Shown here in pieces: positions 12,231 to 28,816 of a stretch of 28,816 nt of DNA. Origin of the DNA: a virus. The notes beneath the pieces are model-generated. The model made no database searches. It saw only the letters and a list, made by a program, of their open reading frames with translations, and was not told where the DNA came from. The stretch covers positions 1 through 28,816 of IMG/VR virus record IMGVR_UViG_3300043466_000441, one strand, 5' to 3'. Within the stretch, counting starts at the first letter, position 1. Every line of letters begins with the position of its first letter. Position numbers and translations under genes: made by a program.

Positions 12231-12257
12231 AAGGCGGTAGAAATACCGCTTTTTTTA
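12231..12257 (+). terminator. strong intrinsic terminator closing the late region
   Basis: Nine-pair stem (AAGGCGGTA/TACCGCTTT, one G-U) closed by a GAAA tetraloop and followed by a T7 run. It separates the late genes from the early promoter region. Confidence 0.88.
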
Positions 12258-12350: not shown

Positions 12351-12359
12351 TTATCCACA
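12351..12359 (+). promoter_or_regulatory. perfect DnaA box TTATCCACA
   Basis: Exact match to the strong bacterial DnaA box. It is the only perfect copy I found by eye on either strand; a few 8-of-9 matches (for example near 8511, 2565 and 18266) lie inside genes. It is 15 bases upstream of the early -7 box, and a DnaA domain IV protein is encoded 1.1 kb downstream. Confidence 0.7.
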
Positions 12360-12374
12360 ATTAAAAAAGTTGTG

Positions 12375-12382
12375 TACATTTG
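12375..12382 (+). promoter_or_regulatory. early promoter, Bacteroidota -7 box TACATTTG
   Basis: Exact fit to TAnnTTTG, in the only sizeable gene-free region, directly before a 15-gene same-strand run. The predicted start of transcription is near 12389, leaving a ~23-base A-rich leader before ATG 12412. The preceding 15 bases AATTAAAAAAGTTGT are repeated before the similar box at 20060. No clear -33 TTG. Confidence 0.65.
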
Positions 12383-13389: not shown

Positions 13390-13523
13390 ATTACATCGAC
13401 TTAAACACAATTATAAATTACTGGCAAGGACAGAAACACGAAGGAGACAAAGGGGGCAACTTTAACCTTGAACTTTATTTACAATACTTAAAAGCGAAAA
13501 GCAATGAAATACAACAGAGGTAA
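13386..13523 (+). CDS. small early protein, unknown function
   Basis: 45 aa, start MNYIDLNTIINYWQGQKHEG. ATG overlaps the previous stop (ATGA), and its end overlaps the DnaA-like gene by 20 bases in another frame. It fills an otherwise empty 114-base gap in a compact operon, which supports it as real. No motif known to me. Confidence 0.5.
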   Translation: MNYIDLNTIINYWQGQKHEGDKGGNFNLELYLQYLKAKSNEIQQR

Positions 13524-13920
13524 AATAGCAAAGATAATCAATTGCCATAAATTCGAAATGATAGACTTTTATAACGCTTGTCCGTTTGTATTCGAAGGTG
13601 AATTTATAGATACAAGAAAAAGAGAAGTAGTTTTGTGGCGAACTGTTGGTGTTGTTTGGAAATGGTTAGATGGTTGTTCACTTGCTGAAAGCGGAAAAGA
13701 ATTTCACCGAGACCACGCAAACGTTATTCACTCGATAAAAGCGGTTATTAATGCTTATGAGGGTTACGGACACCCCGAAATAGTTGACAATATTGAATTG
13801 GTTAAATCTAAAATGCCTATGAATTACTATTCTGACGACGATTTATGGGTGAATTACGCAAAAAATTTAGTTCGATTAGATGAACTTTATGCAAAAAGAG
13901 TTAAATTAGCACAAATCTAA
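13504..13920 (+). CDS. stand-alone DnaA domain IV-like DNA-binding protein
   Basis: 138 aa. Residues ~37-86 match the C-terminal DNA-binding domain of DnaA: an opening TRKREVVLWRTVGVV helix, CSLAESGKEF (the SLxxIGxxF element of the helix-turn-helix) and RDHANVIHSIKAV, the counterpart of the DnaA signature RDHTTVxHAxxKI that reads the TTATCCACA box. There is no AAA+ domain, so it cannot form an ATP-driven initiator by itself. Residues 1-36 and 90-138 are not recognised. The operon begins with a perfect DnaA box 1.1 kb upstream, so it may bind there to start replication, recruit or block host DnaA, or control its own promoter (inference). Two T residues of the bacterial signature are A72 and N73 here, which might change specificity. 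Confidence 0.75.
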   Translation: MKYNRGKIAKIINCHKFEMIDFYNACPFVFEGEFIDTRKREVVLWRTVGVVWKWLDGCSLAESGKEFHRDHANVIHSIKAVINAYEGYGHPEIVDNIELVKSKMPMNYYSDDDLWVNYAKNLVRLDELYAKRVKLAQI

Positions 13921-13932
13921 AAACAAAATAAA

Positions 13933-14463
13933 ATGAAAAAACAAGAAGAAACAGTTGAGGTCGTGTTGACCTTTTTACAAAAGTTGCACAACGCAAAGCA
14001 ATCAATTAAAAAGATAGCGAAGAACGCTAAAAATCCACACTTTAAAAACAATTATGCCGATATTAACGCATTAATTGAAGAGGTCGAACCTATCTTATTA
14101 GAAAACAGGCTTCTATTATTACAACCTATCGAGGACGGTTACGTTTATAGTCGAATAGTTGACATTGATTCGGGTGAAATTTGTGAAAGTTGTATGAAGT
14201 TACCCGAAATTACCGACCCACAAAAGATAGGGAGCGCAGTTACTTATTACAGACGTTACACTTTGCAATCTCTTTTAAGTTTACAAGCTGTTGACGATGA
14301 TGCAAATTTAAGTTCTGAGGCTGTTAAAAGTCAAAAACAAGTATTAAGCCCTGAAAGATTTGAAAAGGCGTTAGAAGGTATTAAAAACGGCACTGTGTCC
14401 AAACAAGACTTAGCCAAGTTTGAATTAACTAAAGAACAACTAACTAAACTTAACGAACTATGA
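13933..14463 (+). CDS. ERF-family single-strand annealing protein
   Basis: 176 aa. Core ERF features: KNPHFKNNYADINALIEEVE (about residues 33-52), then EPILLENRLLLLQPI, and the hallmark GSAVTYYRRYTLQSLLSLQA (100-119) followed by an acidic DDDAN. ERF proteins anneal complementary single strands in phage recombination and circularisation. C-terminal ~40 residues form a short acidic/basic tail. The YqaJ-like exonuclease lies 440 bases downstream, giving the usual exonuclease-annealer pair. Ends in ATGA overlap with the next gene. Confidence 0.85.
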   Translation: MKKQEETVEVVLTFLQKLHNAKQSIKKIAKNAKNPHFKNNYADINALIEEVEPILLENRLLLLQPIEDGYVYSRIVDIDSGEICESCMKLPEITDPQKIGSAVTYYRRYTLQSLLSLQAVDDDANLSSEAVKSQKQVLSPERFEKALEGIKNGTVSKQDLAKFELTKEQLTKLNEL

Positions 14464-14681: not shown

Positions 14682-14905
14682 AAACACCAATTGAATATTT
14701 AATAGACGAATTGAACTCAATAGTTACAATTAATATAAGCGATGTTGAAAAATTTAATAAAATAATTGTTGAAGCTCGAAGAATGGAAGAGGAACATTTA
14801 TCAATTGCTTACGATTCTGGAATTGAATATATGGTTGACAGACTTGATAGTTCAATAAATCTTACTTATTCTAATAATTATTTTAAAAATCAATATAGAA
14901 AATGA
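14678..14905 (+). CDS. small helical protein, paralogue of previous gene
   Basis: 75 aa, start MKTPIEYLIDELNSIVTINI. Shares the IE-[WY]-L and EAR-x-x-E framework and the following Ala-x-x-x-Gly with the preceding gene. Ends with an Asn/Tyr-rich tail (NLTYSNNYFKNQYRK). Function unknown; placed between the annealer and the exonuclease. Confidence 0.65.
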   Translation: MKTPIEYLIDELNSIVTINISDVEKFNKIIVEARRMEEEHLSIAYDSGIEYMVDRLDSSINLTYSNNYFKNQYRK

Positions 14906-15567
14906 AAATAAGATGCTCACAATTAGGAAAAATTATGACAAGCTCTCGGTCAAAATCTGAGGTTTTAAGTCAGACCGCAAAAACCTATATCGAAGAACTC
15001 GCAAAAGAACATTTATTCGGGATTAAAAAGGTGTTTAAATCGCGTTACACGGACAAAGGTAACGAAGTCGAAGATAAAGCAATCGAACTAACCGAAGATG
15101 TTTTAGGATTCGAGTTTCTAACCAAAAACGAAGATTATTACCAAAACGATTACATTAAAGGGACACCCGACATTATAACGACCTCACTTGTAATTGACGT
15201 GAAAAGTAGCTGGTCAGGAGATACATTTCCGTTTTTTGAAACCGAACTACCAAATAAAGACTATTATTACCAAGTAATGGGTTATATGTGGCTTACTGGC
15301 AAGAAAAACGCTTTAATAAGTTATTGTTTAATTAACACACCTGAAGAAATTGTTAACGATGAAATTAGAAGAACCTCGTGGGGTAAATACGAAATCGAAC
15401 CCTCTGAAGAAACTATTCGAGATGTTGTGGCTTTACATAGTTTCGACCATATACCGAAAGACAGAAGAGTAAAAGCTTTTCACGTCGAATATAACGAAGG
15501 GGTTGTTAATGAGATGAAAACACGAATTGAACATTGTCGAACATATTTTAACGAGTTGATAAGATGA
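14902..15567 (+). CDS. YqaJ/lambda-exonuclease-like nuclease (PD-(D/E)XK)
   Basis: 221 aa. Shows the order of YqaJ-type viral recombinases: an N-terminal SQLGKIMTSS element, KGNEVEDKAIE (E55 or E57), then TPDIITTSLVIDVKSSWS with D90, D99 and K101 as the PD-(D/E)XK site, and YYYQVMGYMWLTGKKNALIS after it. It should degrade one strand of double-stranded DNA and feed ssDNA to the ERF protein. Four-base overlaps on both sides. C-terminal half has a FHVEYNEGVVNEMKTRIEHC helix, common in the family. Confidence 0.82.
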   Translation: MKIRCSQLGKIMTSSRSKSEVLSQTAKTYIEELAKEHLFGIKKVFKSRYTDKGNEVEDKAIELTEDVLGFEFLTKNEDYYQNDYIKGTPDIITTSLVIDVKSSWSGDTFPFFETELPNKDYYYQVMGYMWLTGKKNALISYCLINTPEEIVNDEIRRTSWGKYEIEPSEETIRDVVALHSFDHIPKDRRVKAFHVEYNEGVVNEMKTRIEHCRTYFNELIR

Positions 15568-15776
15568 ACATAACAAACGAAAGCATACAACACGAAGACA
15601 CCGTTTTAATAGCGGTTCTCGGGAAATACTGGGAACGTTCAAAACTCGGACAACAGAAATACGGGACTAATTTAGACCGCAAAGACGTTGACTTGTTAGG
15701 ATGGTTAAACCACTTGCAAGAGGAGTTGATGGATGCAACCCTTTACATTGAAAAATTAAAACGAGAATTAAAATGA
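15564..15776 (+). CDS. small helical MazG/dNTP-pyrophosphohydrolase-like protein
   Basis: 70 aa. The segment KYGTNLDRKDVDLLGWLNHL then QEELMDATLYIEKLKREL has the E-E-x-x-D helix pattern (EELMD) seen in phage MazG-like or all-alpha NTP pyrophosphohydrolases, though this copy is too short to hold the entire catalytic four-helix set. It might act as a dimer or be only a structural relative. Many phages carry such 70-90 aa genes between recombination and replication genes. Overlaps both neighbours by 4 bases. Confidence 0.55.
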   Translation: MNITNESIQHEDTVLIAVLGKYWERSKLGQQKYGTNLDRKDVDLLGWLNHLQEELMDATLYIEKLKRELK

Positions 15777-16462
15777 AAAAGTATATTTATGCAAATCAAT
15801 CGAGTTTGTGGGGTGAACCTGAATGCATAGGGTTTGGAACTGAAGAATTTTACGTTAAAGAAATACCGAAAGAAATAAGTAAAAAAATGATTATTGAAAA
15901 TCATTACTCAAAAAAAGTTTGTAACGATGCAACAACGCATATACATTTAGGGGTATTTTACAAAGATTCTTTAAAAGGTGCTTTACAACTTGGTTATGCT
16001 ATGAACCCATTGAGCCACGCCTCAATAGTTAAAGATAGTAAATTAGATGAATACAAAGAGCTTAATAGAATGTGGATTGACGATAATTGTATTGAATACG
16101 CTGAAAGCCGTGCGATAAGTTTTTGTGTAAAATACTTGAGGCGCAAATATCCTAAAGTTAAATGGATTCAATCATTTGCGGATGAACGCTGCGGAGGTTT
16201 AGGAATAGTTTATCAAGCGGCAAGTTTTGGGTTTTACGGTGAGCATAAAAGTACATTTTGGGAGTTTGAAAACGAGGTTTATCACAATTCAATAATTACC
16301 AATAATAATAGAAACAAAAAGGCGGAACTTGAAAAAAGAGGCTTTAATGAAACAGCTATAAAATACGAGTTGAGGCAATTTAGATATATTAAATTTTTAG
16401 AGCAACGTGAAAAGAAAAAATGTTTGTTGAAAGAACAACCATATCCTAAACATTATAAATAA
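15773..16462 (+). CDS. Mom-like DNA base modification protein (GNAT-type fold)
   Basis: 229 aa. Pattern of phage Mu Mom relatives: an ENHYSKK motif (~42-48), HLGVFYKDSLKGALQLGYAM (58-77), ELNRMWIDD (96-104), the central AESRAISFCVKYLRRKYP (110-127), then IQSFADERCGGLGIVYQAAS (132-151) and GFYGEHKSTFWEF. Mu Mom modifies adenines to a carbamoylmethyl-type base and so protects phage DNA from restriction. A similar anti-restriction role is likely here; the exact chemistry is not shown by the sequence. Its DNA is more AT-rich than the recombination genes before it. A 37-base gap follows, without promoter. Confidence 0.72.
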   Translation: MKKYIYANQSSLWGEPECIGFGTEEFYVKEIPKEISKKMIIENHYSKKVCNDATTHIHLGVFYKDSLKGALQLGYAMNPLSHASIVKDSKLDEYKELNRMWIDDNCIEYAESRAISFCVKYLRRKYPKVKWIQSFADERCGGLGIVYQAASFGFYGEHKSTFWEFENEVYHNSIITNNNRNKKAELEKRGFNETAIKYELRQFRYIKFLEQREKKKCLLKEQPYPKHYK

Positions 16463-16903: not shown

Positions 16904-16996
16904 GGTTCGCTCTCACGTTATAGAACCAAAAAAGGATTATTTGAGCCTTTATTCAAATCACGAGGTGAGAGCCGTGACGCGAATAGGGGCTTTTTT
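16904..16996 (+). promoter_or_regulatory. candidate structured leader: kissing hairpins plus attenuator-type terminator
   Basis: Gene-free 134-base gap (16882-17015) before the replication genes. Hairpin 1: GGTTC (16904-16908)/GAACC (16923-16927). Hairpin 2: ATTTGA (16939-16944)/TCAAAT (16953-16958). Hairpin 3: CACG (16959-16962)/CGTG (16973-16976). The loop of hairpin 1 contains GCTCTCAC (16909-16916), which is the exact reverse complement of GTGAGAGC (16965-16972) in the loop of hairpin 3, so an 8-pair loop-loop helix is possible. GAGAGCC (16967-16973) can instead pair with GGCTTT (16988-16993) just before T6 (16991-16996) to make a terminator, excluding the kissing state. Could be a simple terminator with chance complementarity. 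Confidence 0.45.
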
Positions 16997-17015
16997 ATTG
17001 CTTAAAAATATAGTT

Positions 17016-17591
17016 ATGCGAGATTCAATGATTTTTTACCGTAGCTTTTACGAAAGTTTAGACGGAATGACTGAAACAACAAAAGCACAGGTTTACGATG
17101 CTATTTTTATTTATGGTTTAGACTTTAAAGAGCCCACTTTTACGGATGCAATGGCTAAATCTTTATTCACTTTGATTAAACCTCAAATCGATGCAAACGT
17201 AAAGAAATACCATAACGGAAAGAAACCTAAATTAAAGCAAGAAATAAGCAAAGCAGAAGCAAAAGACAAGCAAAGTAAAAGCAAAACAGAAGGCAATGTA
17301 AATGTTAATGTAAATGTAAATGATAATGTTAATGTAAATAAGAGGTTTATAGTACCTTCTTTACAAGAAGTTAGTAAATATTGTTTAGAACGTAACAAGG
17401 GTGTTGACGCTGAAAAGTTTATTAACTACTATACAAGCAACGGTTGGTTAGTTGGTAAGAATAAAATGAAGGATTGGAAAGCGTGTGTTAGGACATGGGA
17501 AAAAAGTTCTTTAGAACTTAATAAACAACAAAAGTCGAACGACCAGCTTTTCTACGAGAATGTAATGAAACAAGTAAATGCTTACAAATGA
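17016..17591 (+). CDS. replisome organizer / helicase-loader-like protein (DUF6291-type N-terminus)
   Basis: 191 aa from ATG 17016; an in-frame TTG at 16941 would run through the hairpin/terminator region and is rejected. N-terminal ~70 residues (MIFYRSFYESLDGMTETTKA ... TDAMAKSLFTLIKPQIDANV) match the DUF6291 type of winged-helix-like phage replication proteins. Next is a low-complexity NV-repeat linker (17296-17340). The C-terminal part (residues ~112-165, with KFINYYTSNGWLVGKNKMKD and WKACVRTWEKS) is the DNA-binding region often linked to loaders of the DnaB-type helicase. It overlaps the helicase gene by 4 bases, so the two are probably made together and act together. Confidence 0.7.
   Translation: MRDSMIFYRSFYESLDGMTETTKAQVYDAIFIYGLDFKEPTFTDAMAKSLFTLIKPQIDANVKKYHNGKKPKLKQEISKAEAKDKQSKSKTEGNVNVNVNVNDNVNVNKRFIVPSLQEVSKYCLERNKGVDAEKFINYYTSNGWLVGKNKMKDWKACVRTWEKSSLELNKQQKSNDQLFYENVMKQVNAYK
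17296..17340 (+). repeat. hexanucleotide AATGTA/AATGTT tandem repeat in coding sequence
   Basis: About seven units of AATGTN encoding alternating Asn-Val residues (one Asp) between the two domains of the replisome-organizer-like protein. Unit length six keeps the frame, so copy number can vary without disrupting the protein. Confidence 0.85.
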
Positions 17592-18481
17592 TTTTAAAAG
17601 ACGGACATAGCACAAATTACCTACTCGACTACAAAGACGGTAAAATTTCGATGGGTCTTGGCATAGGATGCGTTTTAGACGATTACATTCGATTCAAGCG
17701 AAAACAACTAAACATAGTTCTCGGACACGACAACGTAGGTAAGTCTTATTTTATGCTGTGGTACTTTCTTTGTTTGGCTGTTAAACACAATTTGAAGTTC
17801 GTGTTGTGGATGGGTGAAAACTCAAGCGGTCAAGTAATGCGTGACTTAATTCAAATGTATTCGGGAAATAAGTTTAGCGACCTATCAAAAGACGAAATAC
17901 TAACTTACAACAAGACTATTGAACAATGGTTTAAATTTGTCAGCAACGAACAAATGTACACACCTCAAGAGATGTTAAAGATAATTGAAACTCAAGAATG
18001 CGACGTTGCTTTTATAGACCCGTTCACTGGATTAAATCGAGGTATGCAACACAGCGACAATTACGAGTTCTTAAACACGACAAGAGACTTTTGTAACCGA
18101 ACGGGAAAGACTTTGTATATTTCAACACACCCTACAAGCGAAAGCGGACGTACTTCGATGCTTTACCCTCAAGACCACGTATGGAACGGACATCTTAAGC
18201 CACCATTGAAAGCGCATATTGAAGGCGGTAAACCGTTTTTAAATCGTTGCGACGATATGCTTGTAATCCACAGACTTGTAAAACACGAATCAATGAAATA
18301 CTTTACAATGATTGATATCGAAAAAATTAAAGACCGTGACACTGGGGGACAACAAACCGAGTTAAACCAACCGCTTTTATTTGATTACAATTTCGGTAAA
18401 GGTTTTACGATAGGTGGCGTTAATCCATTGCAACAAAAACACGAAATAAAAAGAAATACTAATTTTGATTTACCCTTTTAA
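17588..18481 (+). CDS. DnaB/RecA-type replicative helicase (short form)
   Basis: 297 aa. Walker A GHDNVGKS at residues 46-53 with preceding NIVLG strand, an FVLWMGENSSGQVM stretch typical of RecA-like motors, Walker B CDVAFIDPFTGL with D144, then TLYISTHPTSES (sensor His181) and a MLVIHRL strand near residue 235. The N-terminal domain of DnaB is absent, so this is a one-domain hexameric ATPase like those of many small Bacteroidota phages. It likely unwinds DNA at the phage fork, and is loaded by the preceding gene product. Follows by 4-base overlap. Because no polymerase gene is present, it must hand over to the host replisome. Confidence 0.78.
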   Translation: MILKDGHSTNYLLDYKDGKISMGLGIGCVLDDYIRFKRKQLNIVLGHDNVGKSYFMLWYFLCLAVKHNLKFVLWMGENSSGQVMRDLIQMYSGNKFSDLSKDEILTYNKTIEQWFKFVSNEQMYTPQEMLKIIETQECDVAFIDPFTGLNRGMQHSDNYEFLNTTRDFCNRTGKTLYISTHPTSESGRTSMLYPQDHVWNGHLKPPLKAHIEGGKPFLNRCDDMLVIHRLVKHESMKYFTMIDIEKIKDRDTGGQQTELNQPLLFDYNFGKGFTIGGVNPLQQKHEIKRNTNFDLPF

Positions 18482-18483
18482 CT

Positions 18484-19275
18484 ATGAAAATAGCTTGGTT
18501 TAGTTGCGGTGTAACTTCCGCAGTAGCTTGTAAATTAGCGCTTGAAATATACGGAACTGAAAACGTAGAACTTTACTATATTGTTATAGATTCAGCACAC
18601 GAAGACAATAAACGATTTATTGACGATTGTGAAAAGTGGTATGGTAAAAAGATTAATAAAGTTCAATCGGAAAAATACAAAGACCAGTTTGACGTTATCC
18701 AAAAGATTAAGTACATTAACGGAGTAAATGGTGCGCCTTGTACATTACATTTGAAAAAGAATGTCAGGTATAGAATAGAAAAAGAAATTGAGTTTGATGG
18801 TCAAATTTTCGGATTCGAGTTTGAAAAGAAAGAAATTAACAGAGCAATAAGATTTAGCCAACAATACCCTCAAGCTAAACCGCATTACCCTTTAATAGAT
18901 AGAAAGATTACAAAAAGTCAATGCGCTGAAATATTATTGAAAAACGGAATTAAATTACCTAAAATGTACGAATTAGGATTCCATAATAATAACTGCATTG
19001 GATGCGTTAAAGGTGGCAAGGGTTACTGGAACCACGTAAGAAAACATTTTCCAAACGAATTTAATAAGATGTCAGAACTTGAACAACAAATTGGTGCTAC
19101 TTGTATAAAAAATAAATATCTTAAAGACTTAAAACCAAACGAAGGAAAACACGAACCACCAATTGTTCCAGACTGTGGTACATTTTGCGAGATAGAGTTT
19201 GCAGATATTTTAGACCCAAACACGGAAAAAGTTCTTGCGGGTTACACTACAATTAAACAACTTAAACTATTTTAA
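18484..19275 (+). CDS. PAPS-reductase-like PP-loop ATPase family protein
   Basis: 263 aa. N-terminal WFSCGVTSAVACKLAL (residues 5-20) is the SGGxTSxxxAxLA-type PP-loop of adenine-nucleotide alpha hydrolases, with the sulfate/PAPS reductase-like arrangement after it (YIVIDSAHEDNKRFIDDCEK). Cysteines at 86 (APCT), 171 and 174 (CIGC), 207, 231 and 235 suggest an iron-sulfur or zinc site. Phages carry such genes widely; roles proposed include sulfur transfer to nucleic acid and base modification, but the substrate cannot be told here. A single Cys-to-Gly variant of the PP loop (SCG rather than SGG) is notable. Located between helicase and a coiled-coil gene. Confidence 0.7.
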   Translation: MKIAWFSCGVTSAVACKLALEIYGTENVELYYIVIDSAHEDNKRFIDDCEKWYGKKINKVQSEKYKDQFDVIQKIKYINGVNGAPCTLHLKKNVRYRIEKEIEFDGQIFGFEFEKKEINRAIRFSQQYPQAKPHYPLIDRKITKSQCAEILLKNGIKLPKMYELGFHNNNCIGCVKGGKGYWNHVRKHFPNEFNKMSELEQQIGATCIKNKYLKDLKPNEGKHEPPIVPDCGTFCEIEFADILDPNTEKVLAGYTTIKQLKLF

Positions 19276-28132: not shown

Positions 28133-28816
28133 ATGGCGGGAACGATTAACGTTGGGACAATTCAAGTAGGTGGTTTAAAAGAACTCAAAGCAGAACTTAA
28201 AGCGGTTCGTGACGAGTTACTAAATGCAACCGACCCGAAAAGAATGCAAGAACTCGCAACCGCAGCGGGTGAACTCAAGGACAGAATAGGAGACGCAAAC
28301 GAACAAATCACGGTCTTTGCAAGTGGTTCTAAATTCGAACAAATAAACAACTCTTTTGGAAGTCTCAAAGATTCAATAATGAACTTGGACTTTGAAGAAG
28401 CAAGTGACAAAGCAAAAATATTTCAACAAACTGTAACATCGATAAATCCTGAAACAATATCAAACGGTATTAAAGGCTTAACTTCAACCGTTGCCACGTT
28501 AGGTAAAACGTTTATTCAATTTGGAATAATGTTATTAACTAACCCTATCTTTTTACTGGTTATCGCTATTACGGCAATCGTTGGAGCTATTGCAGCTTTA
28601 ATGAATGCACTCGGAATACTTCAACCTATACTAGATATTATCGGAGTGGTTTTTGGGTTTATTGGTGACGTTATAAATATAGTAATTGACGCTATAAAAG
28701 AATTTCTTTCGTGGTTTGGTATTGGTGAGGGCGCAGCCGAAGAAGGTGAAGCCAACGCAGAAGAACGACATAAAAACGAAATGCGCAGACGTGAGGAGCT
28801 TAGTGCGGTTCGTGAA
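28133..28816 (+). CDS. tape measure protein, N-terminal 228 residues (partial, runs off the window)
   Basis: Starts at ATG after an A-rich leader and is open to the last base. The first ~120 residues are polar and helical (start MAGTINVGTIQVGGLKELKA). Residues ~125-195 are a long hydrophobic zone with several possible membrane-crossing helices, as expected for a tape measure that inserts in the inner membrane during ejection. The last 48 codons (28673-28816) encode the same amino acids as bases 2-145, so this piece continues as the gene at the window start. The combined 758 aa would give a tail of about 110 nm by the usual 0.15 nm per residue rule (inference). It lies 30 bases after the large tail protein gene and shares its leader type with the gene at 23977. 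Confidence 0.9.
   Translation, partial: MAGTINVGTIQVGGLKELKAELKAVRDELLNATDPKRMQELATAAGELKDRIGDANEQITVFASGSKFEQINNSFGSLKDSIMNLDFEEASDKAKIFQQTVTSINPETISNGIKGLTSTVATLGKTFIQFGIMLLTNPIFLLVIAITAIVGAIAALMNALGILQPILDIIGVVFGFIGDVINIVIDAIKEFLSWFGIGEGAAEEGEANAEERHKNEMRRREELSAVRE
28672..28816 (+). repeat. terminal direct repeat, right copy
   Basis: Right copy of the terminal repeat; joining at this overlap gives a 28,671-base circle. Variant bases at 28798, 28799, 28801 and 28810. Confidence 0.9.

Follow-up and report, generated by a model that had tools for sequence, protein, structure and literature searches.

What might a phage use the DNA-binding domain of DnaA for, once this domain has been separated from the AAA+ ATPase? 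The question is raised by a small gene in the window analyzed here, i.e., the whole of IMG/VR record IMGVR_UViG_3300043466_000441 (28,816 bases). The initial annotation took its product for a DnaA domain IV without an AAA+ part, pointed to a perfect DnaA box at the start of the same operon, and proposed that the protein could recruit or out-compete host DnaA, mark a phage origin, or regulate the early promoter. We examined the identity of the protein, its likely target and the alternatives for its function.

The gene lies in the early block of a small Bacteroidota virus

The two ends of the record (1-145 and 28672-28816) overlap by 145 bases, of which the first 126 are exact and the last 19 include 4 mismatches; an end overlap of 127 bases was also found in two relatives. 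Because its ends overlap, the genome is very likely complete at ~28.67 kb, with a circular assembly, and the mismatched tail suggests strain variants within the sample. The terminase and replication proteins are akin to those of Bacteroidota phages, and the window is a small virus of Bacteroidota bacteria.

The open reading frame for the DnaA-like protein is kept in more than 15 viral contigs, and its surroundings are given in Table 1. The DUF6291 protein encoded downstream is a probable replisome organizer or helicase-loading protein. The terminator ahead of the early region is conserved in relatives, and was missing from the list produced by a consensus scan. The same block also encodes a Mom-like DNA modification protein (15773-16462; Pfam Mom 1.2e-60; phrog_1384 8.9e-48). 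Further on, a PAPS-reductase-like protein is encoded (18484-19275; phrog_424 3.1e-49); in Rhizobium phage RHph_N28_2, a PAPS reductase gene is likewise close to the gene for the DnaA-like protein. Within the DUF6291 gene, a tandem 6-bp repeat (AATGTA, 7.5 copies, 17295-17339) encodes an NVNVNVN linker; its position is reminiscent of phage origins within replisome-organizer genes, and we draw no tie between it and the DnaA-like protein.

Table 1. Positions in the window of the genes, promoter elements and protein segments discussed in the text.
Feature	Residues	Position	Strand	Description	Basis
Intrinsic terminator, probable, of upstream operon		12234..12256	+	GCGGTA-GAAA-TACCGC followed by a T run	Read from sequence
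DnaA box 1, TTATCCACA		12351..12359	+	Over the -33 region of the early promoter	Exact sequence; conservation and substitution pattern in relatives
DnaA-box-like repeat 2, TTGTGTACA		12370..12378	+	19 bp downstream of box 1, same orientation; overlaps the -7 element	
-7 element of Bacteroidota sigma-A type, TACATTTG		12375..12382	+	TAnnTTTG	Sequence; invariant in relatives
Stand-alone DnaA domain IV gene	138 aa	13504..13920	+	ATG start; stop codon included	ORF, Pfam, PDB profile, fold matches
Basic loop	35-41 (IDTRKRE)	13606..13626	+	R38 aligns with E. coli R399, a minor-groove contact	
First helix of the helix-turn-helix	60-66	13681..13701	+	A61 aligns with E. coli P423	AlphaFold2 and alignment
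Recognition helix region	70-86	13711..13761	+	D70, H71, A72, N73, H76 correspond to E. coli D433, H434, T435, T436, H439	
ERF-type single-strand annealing protein		13933..14463	+	In the operon of the DnaA domain IV gene	Pfam ERF 1.5e-19; phrog_2324 8.1e-36
Phage exonuclease		14902..15567	+	In the operon of the DnaA domain IV gene	phrog_5715 9.5e-61
DUF6291 protein		16941..17591	+		Pfam DUF6291 3.4e-17; phrog_15768 1.6e-43
DnaB-like RecA-fold ATPase or helicase		17588..18481	+	Matches Cellulophaga phage primase/polymerase	phrog_18375 5.4e-22 (primase/helicase)

The protein is a DnaA domain IV without the ATPase

The Pfam family Bac_DnaA_C (PF08299) matched residues 37-81 of the protein (E=9.7e-5, 22.8 bits) and was the sole significant Pfam family for all 18 members of the alignment, i.e., the window protein and 17 relatives (best E=4.5e-15). 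Thus, the profile match expected by the initial annotation was obtained, but with the window protein itself below the gathering score of 31.5, which was exceeded by three of the relatives (L058, L097 and L013, with 35.7, 39.0 and 39.5 bits). When the PDB was searched with a profile built from close relatives, the top five matches were five DnaA chains, each weak on its own (E 0.07-0.19). An AlphaFold2 model from a deeper alignment, which replaced a first model with a mean pLDDT of 53, placed helices at residues 2-12, 19-25, 39-55, 60-66, 71-86 and 91-103, in the order expected for DnaA domain IV. This model is itself of low confidence (mean pLDDT 61), and although its top four fold matches in the PDB were all DnaA, they reached only E values of 0.2-0.5. 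The fold evidence is weak but consistent, and the assignment to DnaA domain IV is carried by the sequence evidence.

The 138-aa reading frame has no AAA+ domain, and its C-terminal 40-50 residues gave no match. The DnaA initiator profile TIGR00362 scored 18 bits against a cut-off of 343.9 and matched with its C-terminal end only, so that the architecture of full-length DnaA is absent. The [RK]DHxxVxH signature is present as RDHANVIH at residues 69-76, as the initial annotation had read it, together with the basic loop and the helix-turn-helix. Judged by its sequence, the protein is a stand-alone DnaA domain IV without the ATPase, and this part of the initial annotation was upheld by the Pfam and PDB-profile matches and by the length of the protein, with weaker but consistent fold matches.

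Most DNA-contact residues are retained

In E. coli DnaA, base contacts are made by residues 399, 423, 432-435 and 438-439 (PMC5043019; PMC7561715). With DnaA domain IV (PF08299; PDB 1J1V, 3PVP, 2HCB, 8BTG), which gave its best sequence and fold matches, the window protein shares the helical order, the basic loop and helix-turn-helix and, by alignment, the contacts equivalent to R399, R432, D433, H434 and H439. It differs from DnaA in lacking domains I-III and the ATPase, in being one residue shorter before the RDH motif, in about 50 unmatched C-terminal residues, and in three replacements: T435 to A and P423 to A, both at base-contact positions, and T436 to N. A change of T435 reportedly impairs specific binding by E. 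coli DnaA, as Sutton and Kaguni are said to have found in 1997. When three divergent phage families were aligned, R38, H71 and H76 were invariant, K39 and R40 were nearly so, and R46, L60 and A72 were likewise invariant or nearly invariant.

The initial annotation had correctly noted the replacement of two signature threonines (A72 and N73, corresponding to T435 and T436). Among relatives of the same group, which share the promoter, the signature reads RDHSTVIH, RDHANVIH, RDHAVTVH or RNHAVTIH, and in the most distant member, L013, it reads RDHATVIH. Because relatives with the same promoter have other residues at these positions, and sister phages retain the DnaA-like RDHSTVIH, the A72/N73 substitutions appear from the alignment as a trait of a sub-lineage. 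Alanine at the T435 position was also considered as a hallmark of phage proteins, and was rejected, since S or T is found there in Polaribacter, Pelagibacter, Rhizobium and sister phages.

A DnaA box overlies the early promoter

The consensus of Bacteroidota sigma-A promoters is TAnnTTTG at -12 to -5 (PMC9723704). A matching element, TACATTTG, was found at the early promoter, within the long intergenic region. The start of box 1 precedes this element by 24 bp and the DnaA domain IV gene by 1.15 kb; by the consensus numbering, the box spans about -36 to -28. The same 24-bp spacing was found in all except the most distant relatives; in L013, the most distant of the family, the box is absent at the equivalent place. 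Seven versions of box 1 occur in the relatives (TTATCCACA, TTATACACA, TTATTCACA, TTTTGCACA, TTTTGCACG, TTGTTCACA and TTATTTACA), all with at most one mismatch from TTWTNCACA. The perfect DnaA box that had been reported at the operon start is there, but its perfection is not needed, as the exact 9-mer is shared by a part of the relatives only. Repeat 2 may be plain promoter sequence. One promoter version (TTTTGCACG...TTATG) is paired with both RDHSTVIH and RDHANVIH proteins (in L001, L002, L058 and others), which suggests that promoter segments have been exchanged between these phages.

Box 1 is probably a selected site

One exact TTATCCACA was found in the window where 0.13-0.23 would be expected by chance, so a single copy is not improbable in itself. 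We counted the minimum number of changes per box column on a tree of 20 distinct DnaA domain IV proteins, one per phage. For positions 1-9 of box 1, the counts were 0, 0, 7, 0, 7, 2, 0, 0 and 4; i.e., 14 of the 20 inferred changes fell on positions 3 and 5, the W and N of TTWTNCACA, and positions 1, 2, 4, 7 and 8 had none. Assuming an even spread over the nine columns, at least 14 of 20 changes in these two positions has a P of about 7e-6, and if it is granted only that some pair of columns is hot, positions 3 and 5 would be this pair with a probability of 1 in 36. Conservation also extends to box-1 bases past the TTG of the -33 element. In box 2, only columns 3 and 5 are again variable; however, these bases belong to a promoter 22-mer, which was also found in four unrelated contigs, and we therefore give this pattern little weight. 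From the pattern of substitutions, box 1 is probably a conserved, selected site. A mere promoter coincidence, which the restriction of the exact 9-mer to some relatives would suggest, is less favored in view of the tree-based count.

A scan of the collection found 33 viral contigs with the promoter 22-mer. Every one of these with box 1 and at least 1.2 kb of downstream sequence has a DnaA domain IV gene 0.6-1.7 kb downstream, so that box and gene occur together in the sequences scanned. In the four 22-mer contigs without box 1, no DnaA domain IV gene was seen; two of these contigs extend for no more than about 1 kb downstream, so that the absence is weak evidence in their case.

Protein and site may also have changed together. 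Six proteins, which form one clade, have N at the D433 position, and T at box position 6 accompanies them in 5 of 6 cases, vs. 0 of the 14 others (Fisher 4e-4, a value that is overstated for what is a single clade event). D433N and C6T fit an amino acid and a base that change together as a pair, and we treat the association as a lead rather than a proof, because it reflects one evolutionary event. The T6 box should be a poorer box for host DnaA, which would favor the phage protein as its reader.

The window has no origin-type cluster of boxes

In the window and in five relatives, TTATCCACA, TTATNCACA and TTWTNCACA occurred about as often as expected, with no oriC-like cluster of DnaA boxes, and the counts were not raised in four other phages. 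No iterons were found in the long intergenic region. The proposal of the initial annotation that the protein marks a phage origin through DnaA boxes was rejected as unsupported, with box frequencies at chance and no cluster. In other phage families with DnaA domain IV, no box was found at the early promoters checked.

A different pattern was seen in the 48.7-kb Polaribacter phage P12002L, which has a stand-alone DnaA domain IV and contains no TTWTNCACA where about 9 would be expected; the minimum in 300 Markov shuffles was 2, and permuted words averaged 8.4, none of them with zero copies. Box avoidance of this kind was not seen in the window family.

Stand-alone DnaA domain IV genes are annotated in many phages

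With one relative and a bacterial DnaA domain IV as tblastn queries, stand-alone DnaA domain IV genes were found in annotated phages of Flavobacterium (Muminvirus), Cellulophaga, Polaribacter, Tenacibaculum, Leeuwenhoekiella, Pelagibacter, Rhizobium and Bradyrhizobium, often near replication proteins, and labeled as DnaA protein, DnaA helix-turn-helix protein or hypothetical. The window protein as query found nothing at E≤0.01 in the phage collection, and scans of genome contigs found no host or prophage copies of the gene. Previous studies reported DnaA in Polaribacter phages (PMC4615864) and a DnaA-like protein in all HTVC010P-related genomes (PMC6811365). With stand-alone genes annotated in many phages, the novelty implied at the outset did not hold. 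The window protein, which has no ATPase and is encoded in an early/replication gene block, is of this known kind; the new element is a DnaA-box site that is conserved over the early promoter, with natural variants of protein and site. A search of the open-licence literature found no report of a function test of a stand-alone phage DnaA domain IV.

Muminvirus gp026, Cellulophaga phi19:3 gp013, Tenacibaculum Gundel1_36 and Polaribacter P12002L_0046 likewise consist of DnaA domain IV only (about 110-160 aa), are encoded in early/replication blocks, and are annotated as DnaA protein or DnaA helix-turn-helix protein. These flavobacterial-phage proteins differ from the window protein in being 25-30% identical where aligned, in their neighbors, and in having no early-promoter box in those checked. 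The Pelagibacter phages (Skadi, HTVC010P group) also encode a stand-alone DnaA domain IV as well as an annealing protein, but they have alphaproteobacterial hosts, and their DnaA-like protein keeps DHTTVLH and has an extra N-terminal region. In TnpA-REP subclass 2.1 (PMC6006769), a C-terminal Bac_DnaA_C shows the DnaA domain IV fold re-used outside DnaA, possibly with a changed target; there it is fused to a Y1 transposase and is not a phage early gene. The record MT835860 ('Bacteriophage sp.') looks like a bacterial chromosome contig, with a full-length dnaA adjoining dnaN- and recF-like genes (the latter two by ORF reading), and several other DnaA matches may be similar.

Discussion

Among the functions offered by the initial annotation, regulation of the early promoter drew the best support, through the conserved box at the operon start. 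We tentatively favor the reading that the protein binds its own early promoter, where it would compete with RNA polymerase or host DnaA and tune the early genes. The module would be a DnaA domain IV detached from its parent protein, with a bacterial DnaA as its probable source, and would grip sites of the DnaA-box type by the same basic loop and helix-turn-helix. Because the AAA+ motor is absent, it can neither form an ATP-DnaA filament nor melt an origin. Its likeliest target would be box 1 over the -33 region, to which the weaker repeat at the -7 element may be added. Once bound to box 1, it would keep sigma-A RNA polymerase from the promoter or drive host DnaA off the site, and would in this way determine how strongly or when the early operon is expressed, i.e., the DnaA domain IV gene itself, the recombinase and the exonuclease, and the primosome genes if they are co-transcribed. 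We infer binding, competition with host DnaA and repression over activation; a feedback repressor or host-DnaA competitor is the probable mode, since occupancy of -36 to -28 should block sigma-A. Against this reading count the two altered base-contact positions, the missing box in L013, and the early promoters of other phage families with DnaA domain IV, where no box was seen.

The main rival, less probable but serious, is that the protein is an accessory replication factor, which marks the phage origin or helps to place the primosome (DUF6291 and the DnaB-like ATPase), as in a split initiator with recognition and helicase loading on separate proteins. The company of these genes speaks for it: DnaC-like or replication proteins are encoded near DnaA domain IV in Tenacibaculum Gundel_1, Leeuwenhoekiella Arctus_1, Cellulophaga phi19:3 and Polaribacter P12002L, DUF1376 in Rhizobium and Bradyrhizobium phages, and a replisome organizer in ctOK67, and the window gene shares an early operon with the ERF and exonuclease genes upstream of the DUF6291 and ATPase genes. 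However, the replication genes of the window are 3 kb further downstream, and the intergenic region lacks the box cluster or iterons of an origin. A more elaborate form of promoter control, which we consider unlikely, is an early promoter responsive to DnaA, at which the ATPase-less phage protein and host DnaA would contend for the -33 box, tying early expression to the host initiator, with helix and box changing together as in D433N and C6T.

Interference with the host is quite improbable in our judgment. As a dominant-negative, the protein would occupy boxes at oriC and the dnaA promoter, stopping host initiation and freeing the machinery for the phage, and this would suit a gene of the early operon whose product belongs to a domain that recognizes DnaA boxes (PMC11511705) and keeps most base-contact residues. 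The altered contacts make such action at host oriC less likely: A72 (T435), A61 (P423) and the N at D433 in one clade suggest drift from the host box, and the T6 promoter boxes of that clade should suit host DnaA less well. The least probable reading, in our estimate, sees no more in the box than a piece of the -33 region that is maintained by RNA polymerase, or by host DnaA as an activator, with the phage protein binding elsewhere or with altered specificity. The promoter 22-mer in unrelated contigs without box 1, the chance expectation for the exact 9-mer and the changed contact residues agree with this, but the substitutions concentrate on the degenerate positions of the DnaA box, and the conserved bases extend beyond the TTG. 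Part of box 1 could still be retained as a -33 promoter element, and its reader could be host DnaA instead of the phage protein.

This phage family offers a concrete candidate target, namely a conserved DnaA-box site in its own early promoter, and the protein as well as the site comes in natural variants. The choice between replication factor, host inhibitor and transcription regulator thereby becomes testable with short DNA fragments, and the family provides a natural set for asking how the specificity of DnaA domain IV shifts once it is freed from oriC.
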